A stretch of DNA of 30,786 bases from a virus, in IMG/VR virus record IMGVR_UViG_3300032073_000146, positions 1 to 30,786 of that record. One strand, 5' to 3'. Shown one piece after another: positions 2,409 to 29,338 of the stretch; the stretch's first letter is position 1, and the number at the start of each line of letters is the position of its first letter. Below the pieces are notes generated by a model that worked only from the letters and a program-made list of their open reading frames with translations, was not told the origin of the DNA and made no database searches. Made by a program: the position numbers and the translations under genes.

Positions 2409-3068
2409 TCAAGAGCCCTTTTTCAGTGCGACTACATTCGATCCGACAAGACTATGCAGATCGGCTTGCACTCTTTGTCTGAGGATCGGAGGGAGTGCGA
2501 TAATGGTATTAACAATCTCGTTCATGAGTTGCTCGTCTGTCATTCTATCATGCGCATCTATTGCTCCTTCTTCTGCATCGAGTGCTCGGAGCTCCTGCAT
2601 CAAAGACACGAGTTGTCTTTGCAGTGCTGCATATGCCTGCCATGATCCCGATTCCTTTGCTTTGTTCATCGCAAGACGTAACTCTGAGATCTGCGTATTC
2701 AAAAGATCTCTGTAGTCTACCTGCTCGGGCTTTGCGCTCGTCTCCTCTGCTGTCGGGATTGTGTGCTGTGCATCGTTCTTGTATCCATGTCTCCGGGATA
2801 GCAACCACATCGCACTTTTTACGTCTCCTTTAAATACTGCGTCTTGTATTGTTGCGAGTGCGTCAAGGGCTCCGAGAGATTCTGCTTCTCTGACTTTTTT
2901 TGCGAATGTCTTGAATGGTTCTTTGGCTCTTGTCTGCTCTCCTCTGTTGATCCATTTGTAAATCGTTGATCTTCCGACTCCGGAGATCTCCGCAGCGATC
3001 GCCATCGTTGCGCCCGTCCGAAGGGCTTTGCAGATTTTTTCTTGCGTCTCCTGTAATTTCTTGCTCAT
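2409..3068 (-). CDS. terS: Terminase small subunit
   Basis: This is the DNA-recognition subunit of the packaging terminase, predicted to bind the packaging site and stimulate TerL. The 219-residue protein has a clear N-terminal helix-turn-helix (about residues 16-44), with AAEISGVGRSTIYKWINRGE as the turn and recognition helix. A long helical middle follows (about 100-190) that would form the oligomer core. I chose the ATG at 3068 because it is preceded by AAGGAGACTACAAC; the frame opens further upstream, but without an ATG or a ribosome site. Neighbours are TerL and portal. The 98-bp gap upstream is the most likely packaging signal. Confidence 0.85.
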   Translation of the reverse strand: MSKKLQETQEKICKALRTGATMAIAAEISGVGRSTIYKWINRGEQTRAKEPFKTFAKKVREAESLGALDALATIQDAVFKGDVKSAMWLLSRRHGYKNDAQHTIPTAEETSAKPEQVDYRDLLNTQISELRLAMNKAKESGSWQAYAALQRQLVSLMQELRALDAEEGAIDAHDRMTDEQLMNEIVNTIIALPPILRQRVQADLHSLVGSNVVALKKGS

Positions 3069-3166
3069 GTTGTAGTCTCCTTGTTTTTTTTTTGAAAAAA
3101 ATAAATACGTTTCTCTAAAAGAGGTCGGTACGCGCAGTGCGGGGGGGGTTAGCCTAGACACATGGC
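3069..3166. other. Intergenic gap before terS, candidate pac/cos site
   Basis: This 98-bp gap is long for this compact genome. It holds a run of eight G at about 3141-3148 next to a GC-rich core (cgcgcagtgcg). Beyond that is a T/A-tract stretch (about 3083-3105) of the kind that bends DNA. A gap directly upstream of terS with a GC-rich core beside A-tracts is a common layout for terminase recognition sites. There is no direct proof of cutting here. It could instead be a 5' leader only. Confidence 0.35.
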
Positions 3167-4145: not shown

Positions 4146-4385
4146 TTAGCATCGAATCTCTTCGACTTCTTCGAAGTGATCCCAGAAAGATTCTGCATAG
4201 ATAATATATCCTTCTGATGTTATCGGTGCATATTTATACATATATCCTAGACCTCTTCCGAGTATCTTGCTATCGATTCTTACAAGGACAGCAGGGCCTG
4301 CCTCGTAATCATCTTGAAAGTCTCTCATTACTCTGTAACATTTTGCATTGTCGTCAGCTTTTGAGAAGATAGGGGAAATTTGCAT
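4146..4385 (-). CDS. Hypothetical small protein under operator-controlled promoter
   Basis: The 79-residue protein starts MQISPIFSKA directly after GGAGACTACA and ends EEVEEIRC. It is acidic and aromatic, with YMYKYAPITSEGYIIYAESFWDHF in its second half split by turns, so it is probably a small beta-rich domain. It resembles short SH3-like or barrel proteins only in composition, and no family is recognised. It is a single-gene unit with its own TTGACA promoter, and convergent to the WGG gene. The promoter carries the 20-bp inverted repeat shared with the promoter at 5501-5529, so the two are likely co-regulated early functions. Confidence 0.75.
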   Translation of the reverse strand: MQISPIFSKADDNAKCYRVMRDFQDDYEAGPAVLVRIDSKILGRGLGYMYKYAPITSEGYIIYAESFWDHFEEVEEIRC

Positions 4386-4440
4386 TGTAGTCTCCGTTTT
4401 TTGTTTAGTGATGTAAAAGAGCAAAGATGAATGTTTTCAT

Positions 4441-4725: not shown

Positions 4726-4850
4726 TGTCTTGCTCCGTCCTTGAGTAGTTGTGCTGTTGTGACCTTGCCATATCGAGAGACGAGGGCTCTGTATGCTCTC
4801 TCGTCTCCTTGTAGTGCCTTGTTTACGAGTGTCTTTACGTTTATCATCAT
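4716..4850 (-). CDS. 44-residue helical protein, sigma-like motif
   Basis: The ATG at 4850 follows GGAGACTACA directly, the strongest local start signal. The 44-residue product begins MMINVKTLVN and contains ALQGDERAYRALVSRYG. This resembles the start of sigma-factor region 2, where a GDE.AF..LV.RY pattern is typical, though the protein is far too short to be a sigma factor. It might mimic a piece of sigma or simply be a two-helix peptide. It overlaps the next gene by ten bases and belongs to the small early operon. Confidence 0.65.
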   Translation of the reverse strand: MMINVKTLVNKALQGDERAYRALVSRYGKVTTAQLLKDGARQCR

Positions 4851-4868
4851 TGTAGTCTCCTGTTGTTG

Positions 4869-5129
4869 TTATTTGCTGATGTCTGCTGTGTTGTCGTATA
4901 CCTCAAAGAGTGCCTCTCCTCCTTGAGAGAGGATCTGCTTTGCGAGAGAATCTGTGCATTGTATCAATACAAGAGATCCGTCTGCTGCTGAGTCATAATG
5001 CTGTGTATACTCAATCATGTCTGCGTCTGTCTCATCTGTCCACTCGAGAGAGTCTTGCAGAGCTTCGTCTGCTGTGGCTCCGAGTCCGAGAATGCAGTAT
5101 CCTTTTTGTATTAATGTATATTGTTTCAT
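4869..5129 (-). CDS. Hypothetical acidic early protein
   Basis: The 86-residue acidic protein starts MKQYTLIQKG after GGAGACTACA. It has a pattern of a short strand region (QKGYCILGLG), an acidic helix (ADEALQDSLEW), then alternating strands and helices. It resembles small host-modifying phage proteins in size and charge but no family is recognised. It is the third gene of the operon that starts at 5476. Its frame continues open upstream over the previous small gene, but the leader and spacing fix the start at 5129. Confidence 0.75.
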   Translation of the reverse strand: MKQYTLIQKGYCILGLGATADEALQDSLEWTDETDADMIEYTQHYDSAADGSLVLIQCTDSLAKQILSQGGEALFEVYDNTADISK

Positions 5130-5146
5130 TGTAGTCTCCGTTGTTG

Positions 5147-5284
5147 TTATCGTTGGTTTTTGTATGTGTGTAGTGTCTGCCAGCAATAGAAGCAGGCATA
5201 TCCTTCTTCTGTCTTGTGGAATGAGAAGCAATCCGGATTCTCTTTTTGTGCTGCATATCTTGTCTGTGCTGTTGAGTGTCTCAT
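5147..5284 (-). CDS. 45-residue cysteine-containing small protein
   Basis: The ATG at 5284 follows GGAGACTACA exactly, as in its neighbours, and the frame encodes 45 residues starting MRHSTAQTRY. It has C19 and a CFYCW element (C31, C34), which looks like half of a zinc knuckle, plus two histidines that could complete a metal site. It is the second gene of the small operon, followed after 17 bases by the next one. Function is not recognised. Confidence 0.65.
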   Translation of the reverse strand: MRHSTAQTRYAAQKENPDCFSFHKTEEGYACFYCWQTLHTYKNQR

Positions 5285-5305
5285 TGTAGTCTCCTGTTGT
5301 TGTTA

Positions 5306-21193: not shown

Positions 21194-21751
21194 CTTTATA
21201 TCTCTCCCGGAGTCTCCTCGCTTGCTGTACATTATACTTCTTTTTGCGCTCGTCTCTGTCTTTTTGTGATTCTTGATCCAGTATATAGTCTGCAATAAGA
21301 TCTGTCTGTGTCTGTGCGTCAAGGGAAAGAAACCATTTTGGATGCTGTGACCAGTACCGAGAGATCCTGAGTGCTAGTCTGTCGAGATGGCCTGCTCTTC
21401 CGTAGAGGAAAAATTTGCTCTTTCATCGACCTCTTTCTCCGTCGGGATTTTCTGCGACATGAACGAGAGACATTTAACTCCCTGCTCATATATGACAGAC
21501 GGAGTTACTCCGATCTCGAGTAATCGATCAAGACAATTATAGCCGTAGTCTGTAGCACTATGACGTACAGGTCTATATTTTGGTAATCTAGCCAAATGAT
21601 CAACACACACACCTATTGCACCCGCGCAAAGACGAGCTAATTGTGCATTGTCTGACTCCGAACTCCAAAGAGAAACGAACTCAAAACATGCAGCGAGGGA
21701 AGGAGAGGAGATCTCCGTCTCCCCTCCCAATTGTTTTATACTTATCTTCAT
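21186..21751 (-). CDS. Tail assembly chaperone, frameshift product (GT-type)
   Basis: A -1 shift at the slippery site 21416-21410 joins the first 114 residues of the upstream frame to 74 residues of the -1 frame, making a 188-residue fusion. The junction reads ERANF-FLYGRAGHLD. The extension has HPKWFLSL and a basic helical tail (DRDERKKKYN, ARRLRERYKDG) and ends at 21186, eight bases into the next gene. It has no start codon or ribosome site of its own. Gene order (tail tube, chaperones, tape measure) is the classic lambda G/GT layout. The long product would bind the tape measure and tail tube protein. Confidence 0.85.
21374..21751 (-). CDS. Tail assembly chaperone, short form (G-type)
   Basis: The 125-residue zero-frame product starts MKISIKQLGG after GGAGACTACTACA. 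It is helical with several cysteines and ends shortly after the slippery site (NFSSTEEQAISTD). It follows the major tail protein and is the more abundant of the two chaperone forms in known phages. It helps guide tail tube assembly around the tape measure and is normally absent from the virion. Confidence 0.85.
   Translation of the reverse strand: MKISIKQLGGETEISSPSLAACFEFVSLWSSESDNAQLARLCAGAIGVCVDHLARLPKYRPVRHSATDYGYNCLDRLLEIGVTPSVIYEQGVKCLSFMSQKIPTEKEVDERANFSSTEEQAISTD
21410..21416 (-). other. Programmed -1 ribosomal slippery site A AAT TTT
   Basis: On the minus strand the heptamer A AAT TTT sits in the zero frame as X XXY YYZ, with GCA AAT TTT as codons. It lies 12 codons before the zero-frame stop and opens the 74-codon -1 frame. 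No obvious strong downstream stem was seen by eye. Established parallels are the lambda G/GT site and its relatives. Confidence 0.85.
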
Positions 21752-21774
21752 TGTAGTAGTCTCCTAAGTTATGC

Positions 21775-23821: not shown

Positions 23822-23959
23822 TTAGCTCCGTTTCTTTTGTTCTGCGCGGGTGATATGTTTTACAACTATGCTCCGCGCCTTGTGGTGAGAGATGTTTTCT
23901 TGTTTAGAGATTCGTGCAGCCATTCGATCTACTGCGTCTCTTTTGCTGTTAGTACTCAT
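23822..23959 (-). CDS. 45-residue basic head-region protein
   Basis: The ATG at 23959 follows GGGAGACTAGCGT and encodes 45 residues starting MSTNSKRDAV, all helical and basic (RMAARISKQE, HHKARSIVVK, EQKKRS). The gene overlaps the previous one by 11 bases and ends two bases before the next. Composition suggests DNA or RNA binding or an internal head peptide. No family recognised. Confidence 0.65.
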   Translation of the reverse strand: MSTNSKRDAVDRMAARISKQENISHHKARSIVVKHITRAEQKKRS

Positions 23960-24608
23960 ACGCTAGTCTCCCGAGCTTCTCTACTCGTGCGATTGCTGCT
24001 TTTGTGTTTTTGAGTTCGGTCTGCTTTGTCTTGAGTCTATTCGCGATCTCTGGGATGTGCTGATCTCTTTCGAGTCTGCTCATTGCGCGATTCATCGAGA
24101 TCAGTCTGAGGGCTGCGATCTGCGGATGAGGAGGATTTAGCACTCCGCTCTTCATGATCTCGATTCTCCACTGATCGAAAGAGTCTGCATCAAAATGCTC
24201 TATAACTCTTCGTCCGACCTTCTCAAGTCTTATCCATTTGGACGTATGATAATTCCCTTTGTGCGCAGGGTATACGCGGATATAGTCATGCTTAATTGGG
24301 TCGATGATTGTCCAACCCTGATCCAATAAGTTTGTTCTCATGATAGAGGAGTCGATCCTGCTTCCGACTGCTCTTGTCCCATTGACTCCGGGGACTTCGT
24401 GGATCGAAGAAAGCACAGGAAGGAGCATAGGAGTCTTTTGTTTTTTTCGTTTGCCCTCCTCTGTCATGCTGTACCCCTCTATCATTTTGAGCTCCCAGTT
24501 TTCTGGGTTGTGTGCGAAGAAAAAACGACTGTTCGCCTTCTTCGGTATTCTTGTCTGTACCTCGGTCTTTTGCTCCCAAGGTTGAGCATATCTGCTGTAG
24601 TCTGTCAT
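23949..24608 (-). CDS. Hypothetical protein after the capsid gene
   Basis: The 219-residue protein starts MTDYSRYAQP after GGAGACTACTACA. It has a mixed N-terminal part (RFFFAHNPENWELKMIEGYS, about 28-47) with a strand-turn pattern, a middle with WTIIDPIKHDYIRVYPAHKG (about 99-118), and a helical coiled-coil end (about 165-219). It resembles no family I can name. From memory, proteins of this size and position appear in marine siphovirus genomes after the major capsid. Its start lies just below the capsid terminator, so it depends on readthrough. Confidence 0.75.
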   Translation of the reverse strand: MTDYSRYAQPWEQKTEVQTRIPKKANSRFFFAHNPENWELKMIEGYSMTEEGKRKKQKTPMLLPVLSSIHEVPGVNGTRAVGSRIDSSIMRTNLLDQGWTIIDPIKHDYIRVYPAHKGNYHTSKWIRLEKVGRRVIEHFDADSFDQWRIEIMKSGVLNPPHPQIAALRLISMNRAMSRLERDQHIPEIANRLKTKQTELKNTKAAIARVEKLGRLAYEY

Positions 24609-24626
24609 TGTAGTAGTCTCCTGTTT

Positions 24627-24687
24627 AAAAAAAGAGTCGGGAGACCGCAGAGCCGGAGACTACAAGAAAGTCCTGCAGCCTCCCGAC
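24627..24687 (-). terminator. Terminator after capsid gene with leader-complementary loop
   Basis: On the minus strand GTCGGGAG (24687-24680) pairs with CTCCCGAC (24643-24636), and CTGCAG/CTGCGG segments inside can extend the stem. TCTTTTTTT follows (T-tract 24633-24627). The loop contains CTTGTAGTCTCC (24666-24655), complementary to the GGAGACTACAA leader found before many genes, including the one starting 28 bases further on. It sits 9 bases after the capsid stop, so capsid transcripts mostly end here and the tail genes get readthrough. Confidence 0.82.
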
Positions 24688-24695
24688 AAAGCGAT

Positions 24696-25664
24696 CTATC
24701 GTTTGGATAGCAATTTTACTCCGCGAGCATCTTCGATGATCCCGAGGCCTAAATATGCATGGCCGCAGATGAAAGTGCTTGCACTCATCGGACGACGATC
24801 AAATTCGACGACAACCTTACCCATAGACATAAGATCTGCTGATCCTTGTACACCTGCAGGAATGCCGTCTACATATCCGAGAGCCATCGGAGAGATAACA
24901 AAATTATCATATCCTGAAGAAGCATTCTCGTTTACGTGTGCGCTTCTGTATACGTCTACACCGAAGAGATTACCTGCGTAATTCTCTCCCTTGGCAGAGA
25001 GCATATCCATAGAGGATTGCATACGACTAACTGCATTTCCGGTCTCGTTGCGGAGAGAGTCTTGGAGTTCAGTCAAAGCTTTAGGTGCGAGAACTGCAGC
25101 ATATGGCCCCGGAGCACCAGAACCAGAAGACGCTTGCTCAAGAGCAAAGATGGCATCAAAGAAGTCGTCTACAGAGAGAGTTGTAGTGTTGAGGCCCGCT
25201 GTAGTACCGAAAGACGCTGCAGCTGCTCCTGTGAGCTCTGCAAAACGAGTCTCGTAACTTCCTGCGATACTTTGAGCGATACGGAAAGGATCGATATCAG
25301 ATCCACCGAATCCGGTCATAGAGGCAAGATCGTCCATCTCGTAAATGATGAATTGTCTAGCGGCTACAAGATCTGCGCTGTTAATTGTCAATGCTGTAGT
25401 GTTACTTGATTCGTCTGAATTTTCAGAGGTGGCTGCAGCCATAGAATCGTAGCCGTCAAGGCCTGCAAGACGTACGCGGACTGTATCTGATCCGCTGCCG
25501 TTAATGCTTCCTTGATAGCTTAGAAGGGCGGTATTGCGAAGGTTGGCATTGTCTCTCAAGAGGAGATTTATCTCCTGAGAGATCATTGCAGAGAGACGTA
25601 ATTTATCGACTAGTCCACCTGATAAAGCGACATTGTCAAACGTAATTGGCTTAGTTGTGGCCAT
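24696..25664 (-). CDS. Major capsid protein (HK97 fold)
   Basis: The 322-residue protein starts MATTKPITFD after CAGGAGCCAGTC. It has an N-terminal helix (LVDKLRLSAMISQEINLLLR), an Ala/Gly-rich middle, a spine helix region (FRIAQSIAGSYETRFAELTG), and a C-terminal segment (YDNFVISPMALGYVDGIPAG, FICGHAYLGLGIIEDARG) typical of HK97-fold capsids. It is alone between its own promoter and terminator, which fits the need for high expression. No prohead protease gene was seen, so the capsid may mature without cleavage. Confidence 0.9.
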   Translation of the reverse strand: MATTKPITFDNVALSGGLVDKLRLSAMISQEINLLLRDNANLRNTALLSYQGSINGSGSDTVRVRLAGLDGYDSMAAATSENSDESSNTTALTINSADLVAARQFIIYEMDDLASMTGFGGSDIDPFRIAQSIAGSYETRFAELTGAAAASFGTTAGLNTTTLSVDDFFDAIFALEQASSGSGAPGPYAAVLAPKALTELQDSLRNETGNAVSRMQSSMDMLSAKGENYAGNLFGVDVYRSAHVNENASSGYDNFVISPMALGYVDGIPAGVQGSADLMSMGKVVVEFDRRPMSASTFICGHAYLGLGIIEDARGVKLLSKR

Positions 25665-25716
25665 GACTGGCTCCTGTTCGTTAGGGTTTGGTGAGTGCTG
25701 ATGGGCTGCTCTGCTG

Positions 25717-25746
25717 TTGACCGGTGCGACCGTACCCTGCTATATT
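25717..25746 (+). promoter_or_regulatory. Rightward promoter for the 67-residue gene
   Basis: TTGACC (25717-25722), an 18-base spacer and TATATT (25741-25746) lie 37 bases before the ATG at 25783. The predicted start is near 25753. It overlaps the leftward capsid promoter, so the two transcripts would be divergent and overlapping. Confidence 0.6.
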
Positions 25747-25753
25747 CTCTCTT

Positions 25754-25780
25754 AGTATAGCATAAAAAAGGAGTGTGCAA
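25754..25780 (-). promoter_or_regulatory. Leftward capsid promoter (extended -10)
   Basis: TGCTATACT (25762-25754) is an extended -10 with one mismatch to TATAAT. TTGCAC (25780-25775) lies 15 bases upstream; the short spacer is compensated by the TGn element. The sequence TTGTTGCACA (25783-25774) is identical to that at the packaging promoter (3746-3737), which suggests one class of late promoter. About 90 bases separate the predicted start from the capsid ATG. Confidence 0.6.
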
Positions 25781-25782
25781 CA

Positions 25783-25986
25783 ATGATCGATATTTTTGCT
25801 CGTTGGGTAGACGGAAAATTAGTCTGTGAGCCAAAGAAAAGACGAGGAATGACGAAGGGAGAGTATCTGCGCGCTGTCTATGCATGCGAACAAATGAACA
25901 AGCAAGACGAAAAAAAACCCGACCGGACAGAATCCGATCGGGCTAAGAGTCACAGCACGAGAGCGATTAGTGCCAGTACCAAATGA
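25783..25986 (+). CDS. Small plus-strand protein between fibre and capsid genes
   Basis: The 67-residue protein starts MIDIFARWVDG after AAAAAAGGAGTGTGCAACA and has its own promoter. It is basic, with RGMTKGEYLRAVYACEQMN as a likely helix. Its last third overlaps the terminator of the fibre gene (25910-25942) and the last 20 bases of that gene. The C-terminal residues may therefore be a by-product of convergent packing. No family recognised. Confidence 0.6.
   Translation: MIDIFARWVDGKLVCEPKKRRGMTKGEYLRAVYACEQMNKQDEKKPDRTESDRAKSHSTRAISASTK
25910..25942 (-). terminator. Terminator of the decapeptide-repeat fibre gene
   Basis: On the minus strand CCCGATCGGA (25942-25933) and TCCGGTCGGG (25927-25918) form a 10-bp stem with one mismatch and a 5-base loop, followed by eight T (25917-25910). 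It is 24 bases past the fibre stop and within the plus-strand gene. Confidence 0.85.
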
Positions 25987-27721: not shown

Positions 27722-27751
27722 ATTATACACGTGTTTGTAGTCTCCGGTAAA
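27722..27751 (-). promoter_or_regulatory. Internal leftward promoter before the fibre gene
   Basis: On the minus strand TTTACC (27751-27746), an 18-base spacer and a perfect TATAAT (27727-27722) precede the fibre gene. The spacer holds GGAGACTACAA (27745-27735), the usual ribosome leader of this phage, here without a gene directly after it. Confidence 0.55.
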
Positions 27752-28345: not shown

Positions 28346-28654
28346 TTACATCTCCTCTAATATGATGGAGATCTCTGCTGTTCCGGTCTTTGCTGCGACA
28401 AAAACAGAGGACGGTCTGTTGATCCCTCGACCGAGTCGAACCTGTATATAATTACTGCTGGGTACTGTGGCTCTTCCTGTCGGTACTGCTCCTCCGTCTG
28501 TTGCTCCATTGTTGCAGACATAGATCTCCTTTCCGACTGCTCCGAGAGAGATGCGAGTACATGCAGACGGCAAAAGAATCTCTGTTACTGTGACGTCTGC
28601 TGTAAAGTTGTAGAAGGCAGGATATGCGTTTAGTCCTCTCAGATCCTCGCTCAT
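28346..28654 (-). CDS. Small beta-sandwich virion-type protein A (paralogue)
   Basis: The 102-residue protein starts MSEDLRGLNAYPAFYNF. The ATG at 28654 overlaps the scaffold-like gene stop as ATGA and has GGAGGCAGTC directly before it. It shares its whole length with the protein at 27754-28068, with the same landmarks in the same order. It is probably a head-associated or fibre-adaptor protein. It follows the scaffold-like gene. Confidence 0.75.
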   Translation of the reverse strand: MSEDLRGLNAYPAFYNFTADVTVTEILLPSACTRISLGAVGKEIYVCNNGATDGGAVPTGRATVPSSNYIQVRLGRGINRPSSVFVAAKTGTAEISIILEEM

Positions 28655-29322
28655 GACTGCCTCCGGTTTCGACTCTTCCATGCCTGTACAACCTTCTCGC
28701 GATTCGCTGCATAAAACTCTGGATCTTTCAGAGCTCTGTCAAGGAATCCCGGAGAGTCAGGAGCAGGGATCGCTCCGACATTTGCACGAGGAGCAGGAGT
28801 GCTCGGATTAAAAGATTCTCCGAGAGCCTGTAGCTGTTCTGCTTCTGGTGAGATCGTCTGCTGTGGCTCTTGTCCTGCTGGTGCATCGTCTAGCATGCTC
28901 AGAGCTTGCAGATGAGGACGGATTGTGATCGGTGCTTTCTCTGGATTCTCTACCTGCTGATCTAGCCATTCGGAGAGAGTTACTCTGTCTTTGTCTGTGG
29001 TGTTTTTTTGTGACCGCTCATAACTCCACTCGATAGCCTCTACGAGATCGGGATCTGTTAATCCATGTTTTGAGATTGACTGATATCTGTGGAATCTCTG
29101 CTCGCTGTGCTGTAGCTTTTTGTTCATGTCGGTTAATTGTTGATTGAGTATATCGACAGAAGACATTGCTTTCTCTGCTTTGTCGAGTCTGCGCTGTGCT
29201 TCCTCAAGAGCTGACTCTGCCGTCTTTGCTCGGCTTGCAACCTTGCCGATCCGCTCTTTGATTATGTTCTCCATCTCTGTTTTTAATACGAAGGTTCGGC
29301 CCTCGTGCTCTATTTCGATCAT
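28651..29322 (-). CDS. Scaffold-like protein
   Basis: The 223-residue protein has a coiled-coil N-terminal half (about 15-80, RIGKVASRAKTAESALEEAQ), an acidic and proline/glutamine-rich middle (about 110-175), and a basic C-terminus (KVVQAWKSRNRRQS). This matches phage scaffolding proteins, which sit between portal and capsid genes and are charged, helical and basic at the capsid-binding end. GGAGACTACA precedes the ATG. No protease signature is seen. Confidence 0.8.
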   Translation of the reverse strand: MIEIEHEGRTFVLKTEMENIIKERIGKVASRAKTAESALEEAQRRLDKAEKAMSSVDILNQQLTDMNKKLQHSEQRFHRYQSISKHGLTDPDLVEAIEWSYERSQKNTTDKDRVTLSEWLDQQVENPEKAPITIRPHLQALSMLDDAPAGQEPQQTISPEAEQLQALGESFNPSTPAPRANVGAIPAPDSPGFLDRALKDPEFYAANREKVVQAWKSRNRRQS

Positions 29323-29338
29323 TGTAGTCTCCTATTTT

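Follow-up and report, generated by a model that had tools for sequence, protein, structure and literature searches.

Phage-encoded regulatory RNAs include sar of P22, OOP of lambda, PreS, VpdS and 24B_1, and both sar and c4 repress the translation of a phage gene (PMC12197685). The c4 RNA of P1 and P7, encoded by the phage, has loops complementary to the surroundings of the ribosome-binding site in a phage mRNA, whose translation is blocked (PMC12197685). Regulatory RNAs can also come from the 3' ends of mRNAs, as with the Vibrio cholerae sRNAs OppZ and CarZ, which pair with their own transcripts and inhibit translation (PMC7398697).

The element described here resembles c4 in that a phage-encoded RNA would carry a loop complementary to the phage's own ribosome-binding site region. 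In groups A, B, C, D, H, H2 and X (introduced below) it also resembles OppZ and CarZ, being located in the 3' UTR of an mRNA that codes for a protein. It differs from c4, which acts on the ant mRNA in immunity, in matching at least 3–4 conserved assembly-region genes from a position next to the capsid gene; from OppZ and CarZ, which belong to bacterial operons and are processed by RNase E, in being a phage element with its seed in the terminator loop; and from sar, OOP, PreS, VpdS and 24B_1 in that their described roles are in lysogeny, in replication or on host genes. Nowhere in the text of the phage-RNA review cited above does the word capsid occur. We rejected identification of the element as a c4 antisense RNA, the matched genes being four that we call T1–T4 (Table 1) and lineage-specific small ORFs, with no ant antirepressor mRNA among them.

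In staphylococci, hairpin loops of the RNAIII type are C-rich and pair with the Shine-Dalgarno sequences of several mRNAs; these loops are host-encoded and carry a generic UCCC, whereas the loop considered here has a lineage-specific extension that is matched by its tags. The papers listed by searches of open-access PubMed Central include none on a phage RNA that is linked to the capsid gene and complementary to several assembly genes of the same phage. Phage antisense RNAs at ribosome sites and autorepressors derived from 3' UTRs are thus already known, and such a capsid-linked RNA appears to be new as far as open-access PubMed Central shows, which is not proof of novelty.

The hairpin, its seed and the tagged leaders

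Within the 30,786-nt window (the whole stretch of viral DNA analysed), a minus-strand ORF resembling a major capsid protein gene is followed by a hairpin whose loop holds an antisense seed (Table 1). The 11-mer GGAGACTACAA has eight exact copies in the window, seven on the coding (minus) strand and one on the plus strand; the sole plus-strand copy (24655–24665) is within the minus-strand hairpin. A first-order Markov estimate predicts ~0.003 plus-strand copies for the entire window. The antisense match of the loop to the leader is not due to chance. The earlier note had reported this pairing and a single antisense copy, and both are borne out: the loop carries CTTGTAGTCTCC, the exact antisense of GGAGACTACAA(G), and the plus strand has one occurrence. 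The tag, as we call the leader motif, is present at eight start codons. As that note had it, the tag is exact and abuts the ATG at 4385, 4850, 5129, 5284 and 29322; the slight variant that it gave for three further starts is real at 21751 and 24608, where the leader reads GGAGACTACTACAATG, but not at 3068, which has the exact 11-mer with two extra bases before the ATG. One more exact copy, which the note had missed, is away from any start codon.

Table 1. Positions of the capsid-linked element, the tags and the matched genes in the window
Feature	Position	Strand	Basis or remark
T run TCTTTTTTT, intrinsic terminator tail	24627..24635	-	read from the sequence, directly 3' of the hairpin
Terminator hairpin with antisense loop	24636..24687	-	8 nt 3' of the capsid stop; folds at -31.4 kcal/mol
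Antisense seed CTTGTAGTCTCC, 12 nt	24655..24666	-	exact complement of leader GGAGACTACAA(G)
Major capsid protein-like ORF, 322 aa, element in its 3' UTR	24696..25664	-	gene position; weak profile match to an encapsulin (Linocin_M18) chain, E 0.024
Promoter-like sequence TTGCAC ... TGCTATACT upstream of capsid	25754..25780	-	read by eye; similar in the relatives compared
T1, terminase small subunit-like (TerS), helix-turn-helix	2409..3068	-	Pfam HTH and Sf6_terminase (E 0.0097) matches, both below cutoff
T2, scaffold-like, between portal-like and capsid genes; putative target	28651..29322	-	position; weak Pfam Phage_scaffold match, E 0.012, below cutoff
T3, 219 aa, gene after capsid; putative target	23949..24608	-	ortholog kept in every group examined
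T4, 125 aa, upstream of a tape-measure-sized ORF; putative target	21374..21751	-	orthologs in 19/29 loci scanned, several of which end before T4
Tag GGAGACTACAA before T1	3070..3080	-	exact 11-mer, 2 extra bases ahead of the ATG at 3068; weaker across groups
Tag GGAGACTACAA before T2	29322..29332	-	exact, abuts ATG
Tag GGAGACTACTA before T3	24611..24621	-	leader of the ATG at 24608; reads GGAGACTACTACAATG
Tag GGAGACTACTA before T4	21754..21764	-	leader of the ATG at 21751; reads GGAGACTACTACAATG
Lineage-specific site, early-region small ORF	4385..4395	-	exact, abuts ATG
Lineage-specific site, early-region small ORF	4850..4860	-	exact, abuts ATG; tag of 5-8 nt in 6 relatives with an ortholog
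Lineage-specific site, early-region small ORF	5129..5139	-	exact, abuts ATG
Lineage-specific site, early-region small ORF	5284..5294	-	exact, abuts ATG
Extra exact GGAGACTACAA copy, away from any start codon	27735..27745	-	in the spacer of a sigma70-like promoter match

The promoter match around this extra copy (TTTACC-18-TATAAT, 27722–27751, minus strand) is upstream of ORF 27694–25967, and similar tag copies away from start codons are found in A_L019 and A_L011. The idea that the tag is itself a promoter feature was rejected, because T2 and T4 start 16–23 nt past the stop of the preceding ORF with the tag abutting the ATG.

A simple terminator scan of the window does not list the capsid hairpin, because its loop exceeds the length that the scan permits. 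Across 26 relatives, both sides of the stem have changed at 5/10 predicted pairs (RNAalifold). The seed is predicted to be unpaired (0.46–0.92) in 13 of the 16 elements folded, with lower values for B115 (0.18), B114 (0.22) and L251 (0.34), and a fold with the seed paired is the computed optimum in 2/16, both from group B. The 5' arm of the hairpin is similar to the tag in groups A and B, and in the computed structures of 2/3 group-B elements it is paired with the seed. Hairpins of this group (such as those after the capsid gene in L114 and L115) have a 5' arm that can pair with either the seed or the 3' arm, and the group-B element may be bistable. The Rfam 15 covariance models gave no match at gathering score anywhere in the window, and none at E up to 1 in the region that covers the hairpin and the capsid leader (24590–25800).

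Because neither PHROG nor Pfam returned a match for the capsid-like ORF, its name is provisional. Between this ORF and the promoter-like sequence, which a consensus promoter scan of the window did not return, is a conserved leader, GGGTACGGTCGCACCGGTCAACAGCAG (25703–25737, minus strand). It takes GGTYGCACC..AACAGC-like forms in groups A, B, D, E, F, H, I and K and has no Rfam match. With its own promoter-like sequence, a conserved leader and an end at the hairpin, a short capsid mRNA is therefore likely. Neither the capsid nor the portal gene carries a tag. Among cultured relatives, no match was found for the window capsid, the group-H capsid or the g23486 homologue, matches to cultured phages being limited to distant TerL sequences (about 22–25% identity). 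The window capsid had no match among genome contigs either, while TerL returned four loci there, one of which (L284) is clearly in the family.

The names of T1–T4 rest mostly on gene position; their orthology between groups is confirmed by BLASTP. The predicted structures of T3 and T4 have pLDDT values of 88, which is confident, and 85, respectively, and neither retrieved a PDB fold with E <= 0.001 or a PHROG match. Position suggests a role for T4 in tail assembly. T1 is located just ahead of the TerL ORF (316–1737) in relatives, and in group-B contigs a DNA methyltransferase gene adjoining it joins the matched genes. Upstream of TerS, 3095–3148 (minus strand) holds a C run and a terminator-like stretch, and the contigs of several relatives start or stop nearby, as if at a genome end.

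Co-change of loop and leaders across eleven groups

An IMG/VR scan with the capsid-like protein returned 80 loci. In group A, 64 loci were followed to the capsid end, and the 62 with at least 100 nt past the stop were counted (L014 and L061 being left out). The seed core TAGTCTCC is kept in the hairpin of 61/62, the exception (L023) having one change, and a GGAGAC-type leader precedes T3 in 62/62, with mismatched T3 leaders such as GGAGACAACATG in 3/62. Group B, with capsids that are 54–58% identical, has the loop GTCGGTTC in 13/13 loci and TAGTCTCC in none, and its T2, T3 and T4 leaders read ACCGACA, GGAACCGACATG or near variants that are often GU-compatible (for L065, whose contig stops before the element, the group-B consensus served as the loop in this comparison). 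In both groups, the neighbouring genes (capsid, g22275 and g23486) have only the Shine-Dalgarno core in common with the loop.

A scan with a TerL profile reached further lineages. Nine lineages beyond A and B, down to 41–44% TerL identity, each have their own matching loop and leaders (L232 and L234, whose contigs stop in or just past the capsid gene, were left out). The element comes directly after the capsid ORF in seven groups (A, B, C, D, H, H2 and X) and upstream of it in four (E, F, I and K). Group H, at 41–44% TerL identity to the query, has the loop TCCCTTTGT and ACAAAGGGA-type tags at T2, T3, T4 and, in the cases where it is seen, T1. The L251 loop, CCCTGTT, faces AACAGGG tags, and that of L238, GGCCTCCCT, faces GGAGGC and AGGGAGGCC. 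Group D has the loop AATCTCCTGT after the capsid gene and ACAGGAGA tags at T1–T4; this loop, which reads CTCCTGTG and not CTCCTGTT, was recognised on viewing the post-capsid region. In E, F and I, no loop follows the capsid gene; upstream of it there is instead a small hairpin and, after that, a separate terminator. The hairpin loops (TTTGCCTCGG, TTGTACCTCG and TGTTACCTCA) fit the GAGGT-type leaders of the respective group. Group K, represented by L284, has ACCTCC upstream of the capsid gene and AGGAGG tags at T2–T4; the bin that holds this contig is a Rhodospirillaceae MAG, a clue to the host at best. A group-C contig (L183) has a second common leader, similar to TACCATCACCACCGGAGCTCC, before at least three ORFs. 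On the TerL tree, the loop/tag states fall on separate branches, and the tags track the tree.

To compare groups, one representative of each of the 11 was taken, and the duplex energies of its leaders were computed with its own loop and with those of the other groups. The T2–T4 leaders average -16.1 kcal/mol with their own loop versus -8.3 kcal/mol when swapped, a value equalled in 0/50,000 permutations, which take the groups as independent although one tag is common to A and C, and a GAGG core to E, F, I and K. Taken gene by gene, the observed value was reached 0 times for T2, T3 and T4 and 6 times for T1 in 50,000. The T3 leader pairs with its own loop in 11/11 groups, and its leader set is the best for its loop in 10/11; T1 is weaker (-12.8 versus -8.0 kcal/mol), its own leader being the best in 4/11. 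The pooled neighbouring genes show no effect (-7.6 versus -7.5 kcal/mol; 20,755/50,000), and the single controls were reached 27,487 (capsid), 33,952 (g22275), 42,096 (g23486), 16,174 (g22719) and, somewhat low, 1,565 (portal) times in 50,000. Part of the loop-tag match is generic because the tags contain the Shine-Dalgarno sequence, for which the loop swap corrects between groups only, and the loops of D, E, F, I and K (5/11) were located with the tags already known.

A blind version, in which the whole capsid-to-T3 region was matched to the T2 and T4 leaders, covered the seven groups with the element after the capsid gene. K is outside this set; its capsid had been called at 99 aa, Ns having been taken for A, which makes the post-capsid region used for it wrong. 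It gave 9.43 nt for own and 6.11 nt for other pairings (21/50,000; controls, 37,235/50,000). The corresponding upstream version for E, F, I and K is weaker (8.25 versus 6.58 nt; 2,159/50,000), four groups permitting no better than ~1 in 24. A reduced set of six groups reached the observed value in 26/20,000 permutations, near its floor of 1 in 720. Shuffled loops yielded 12.65 sites at ORF starts compared to 101 for the real ones, in a count where shuffling loses the anti-Shine-Dalgarno core and related genomes are pooled.

The anatomy of the element, the set of matched genes and the co-change of loop and tags can be read directly from these genomes. Pairing of loop and leader is well supported by the swap and blind comparisons, with complementarity that appears to be maintained by concerted change of seed and targets. 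The conserved set of putative targets is T2, T3, T4 and, less consistently, TerS. Early-region sites are found four times in the window, four times in the group-D contig and a few times in other contigs; the small genes at 4385, 4850, 5129 and 5284 are, on this comparison, lineage-specific extras.

Proposed action in trans and its alternatives

We think it likely that a phage-encoded antisense RNA blocks the ribosome-binding sites of T2, T3, T4 and, less consistently, TerS. The capsid mRNA would end in the terminator hairpin with the antisense seed as its loop, and the RNA, once released, would be either the 3' end of that transcript or a piece of it. With the loop exposed in most computed folds, it would act in trans on 9–12-nt tags overlapping the Shine-Dalgarno sequence and, in group B, the start codon as well. 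Ribosome entry would be stopped at T2, T3 and T4 always, at TerS often and at the lineage-specific early-region genes. When capsid transcription is high, the scaffold-like, packaging and other assembly proteins would be held down, while the untagged capsid, portal and other virion genes would be translated. A small antisense RNA is probably the means by which the phage restrains its own assembly proteins. Accumulation of the RNA, repression by pairing, and the timing and physiological purpose of the circuit are what we infer from the arrangement.

The loop could instead act in cis alone: in a read-through RNA it would pair just downstream, forming a pseudoknot that hides the T3 start, or the 5' arm would choose between the loop and the 3' arm as a transcription attenuator for T3. 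T3 does directly follow the hairpin in the seven groups with the element after the capsid gene, and the tag-like 5' arm of A and B, with its computed seed pairing in 2/3 group-B elements folded, fits such a switch. In group B, moreover, a site right behind the terminator varies in step with the loop: it reads CCGACTAA in 5/5 cases with an AGTCGG loop and CGACA in 8/8 with a TGTCGG loop, which suggests either that the seed is masked within the read-through RNA or that T3 is under cis control as well. The seed is, however, complementary to separately placed mRNAs: T2 and T4, kilobases from the element, follow the changes of the loop no less strongly than T3 does. In E, F, I and K, the element comes before the capsid gene and is away from T3. 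We regard control in cis alone as rather unlikely, though a cis role may exist in addition to action in trans.

The complementarity itself is symmetrical and does not tell regulator from target, so that the tagged mRNAs might bind the 3' end of the capsid mRNA and affect its termination or stability or titrate the seed, or pairing might activate or co-localise the mRNAs. The capsid mRNA is the partner in 7/11 groups, but in E, F, I and K the element is outside the capsid 3' UTR, and one loop facing many leaders suits one regulator with many targets. The tag also shares bases with the Shine-Dalgarno sequence, and pairing there should prevent initiation, as is established for bacterial sRNAs. 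This reversal of roles seems very unlikely to us. That no RNA pairing is involved, and that the leaders simply have a preferred ribosome-binding sequence while the loop matches by coincidence or serves as a protein site, is scarcely credible: the leaders do hold a Shine-Dalgarno core of the kind often common to phages of one lineage, but an antisense 11-mer is expected only ~0.003 times, loop and leaders co-change over 11 groups where neighbouring genes do not, and the blind regional comparison gives 21/50,000.

Returning to repression in trans by the capsid-linked loop, the earlier note had proposed that the loop acts on the leaders of early small genes and terS and in cis on the next gene, shutting down early synthesis late in infection. 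Its core idea of pairing survives the co-change test, the loop being kept in related phages where the leader is kept and altered where the leader is altered. Its choice of targets does not, since the conserved ones are T2, T3 and T4 and, less consistently, TerS rather than the early small genes. Feedback from the capsid mRNA on assembly proteins would suit this set better than a late shutdown of early synthesis.

The ratio of capsid, scaffold and packaging proteins in phages is usually ascribed to gene order, ribosome-site strength and protein autoregulation. More tentatively, we suggest that this family could possess a private antisense code, in which one capsid-linked loop reads a tag found at several start sites of the same phage and balances capsid against scaffold, packaging and other assembly proteins; the code (the loop and at least three tags) would have been rewritten several times, with the circuit kept even when the RNA gene moved. 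If this is true, a single capsid-linked RNA would be a post-transcriptional answer to the capsid/scaffold/packaging ratio, detectable by comparative sequence alone. The concerted change of one loop and several targets would be a natural experiment on how a multi-target regulator switches specificity, and a loop antisense to a phage's own leaders would provide a simple signature to seek in other uncultured phages.
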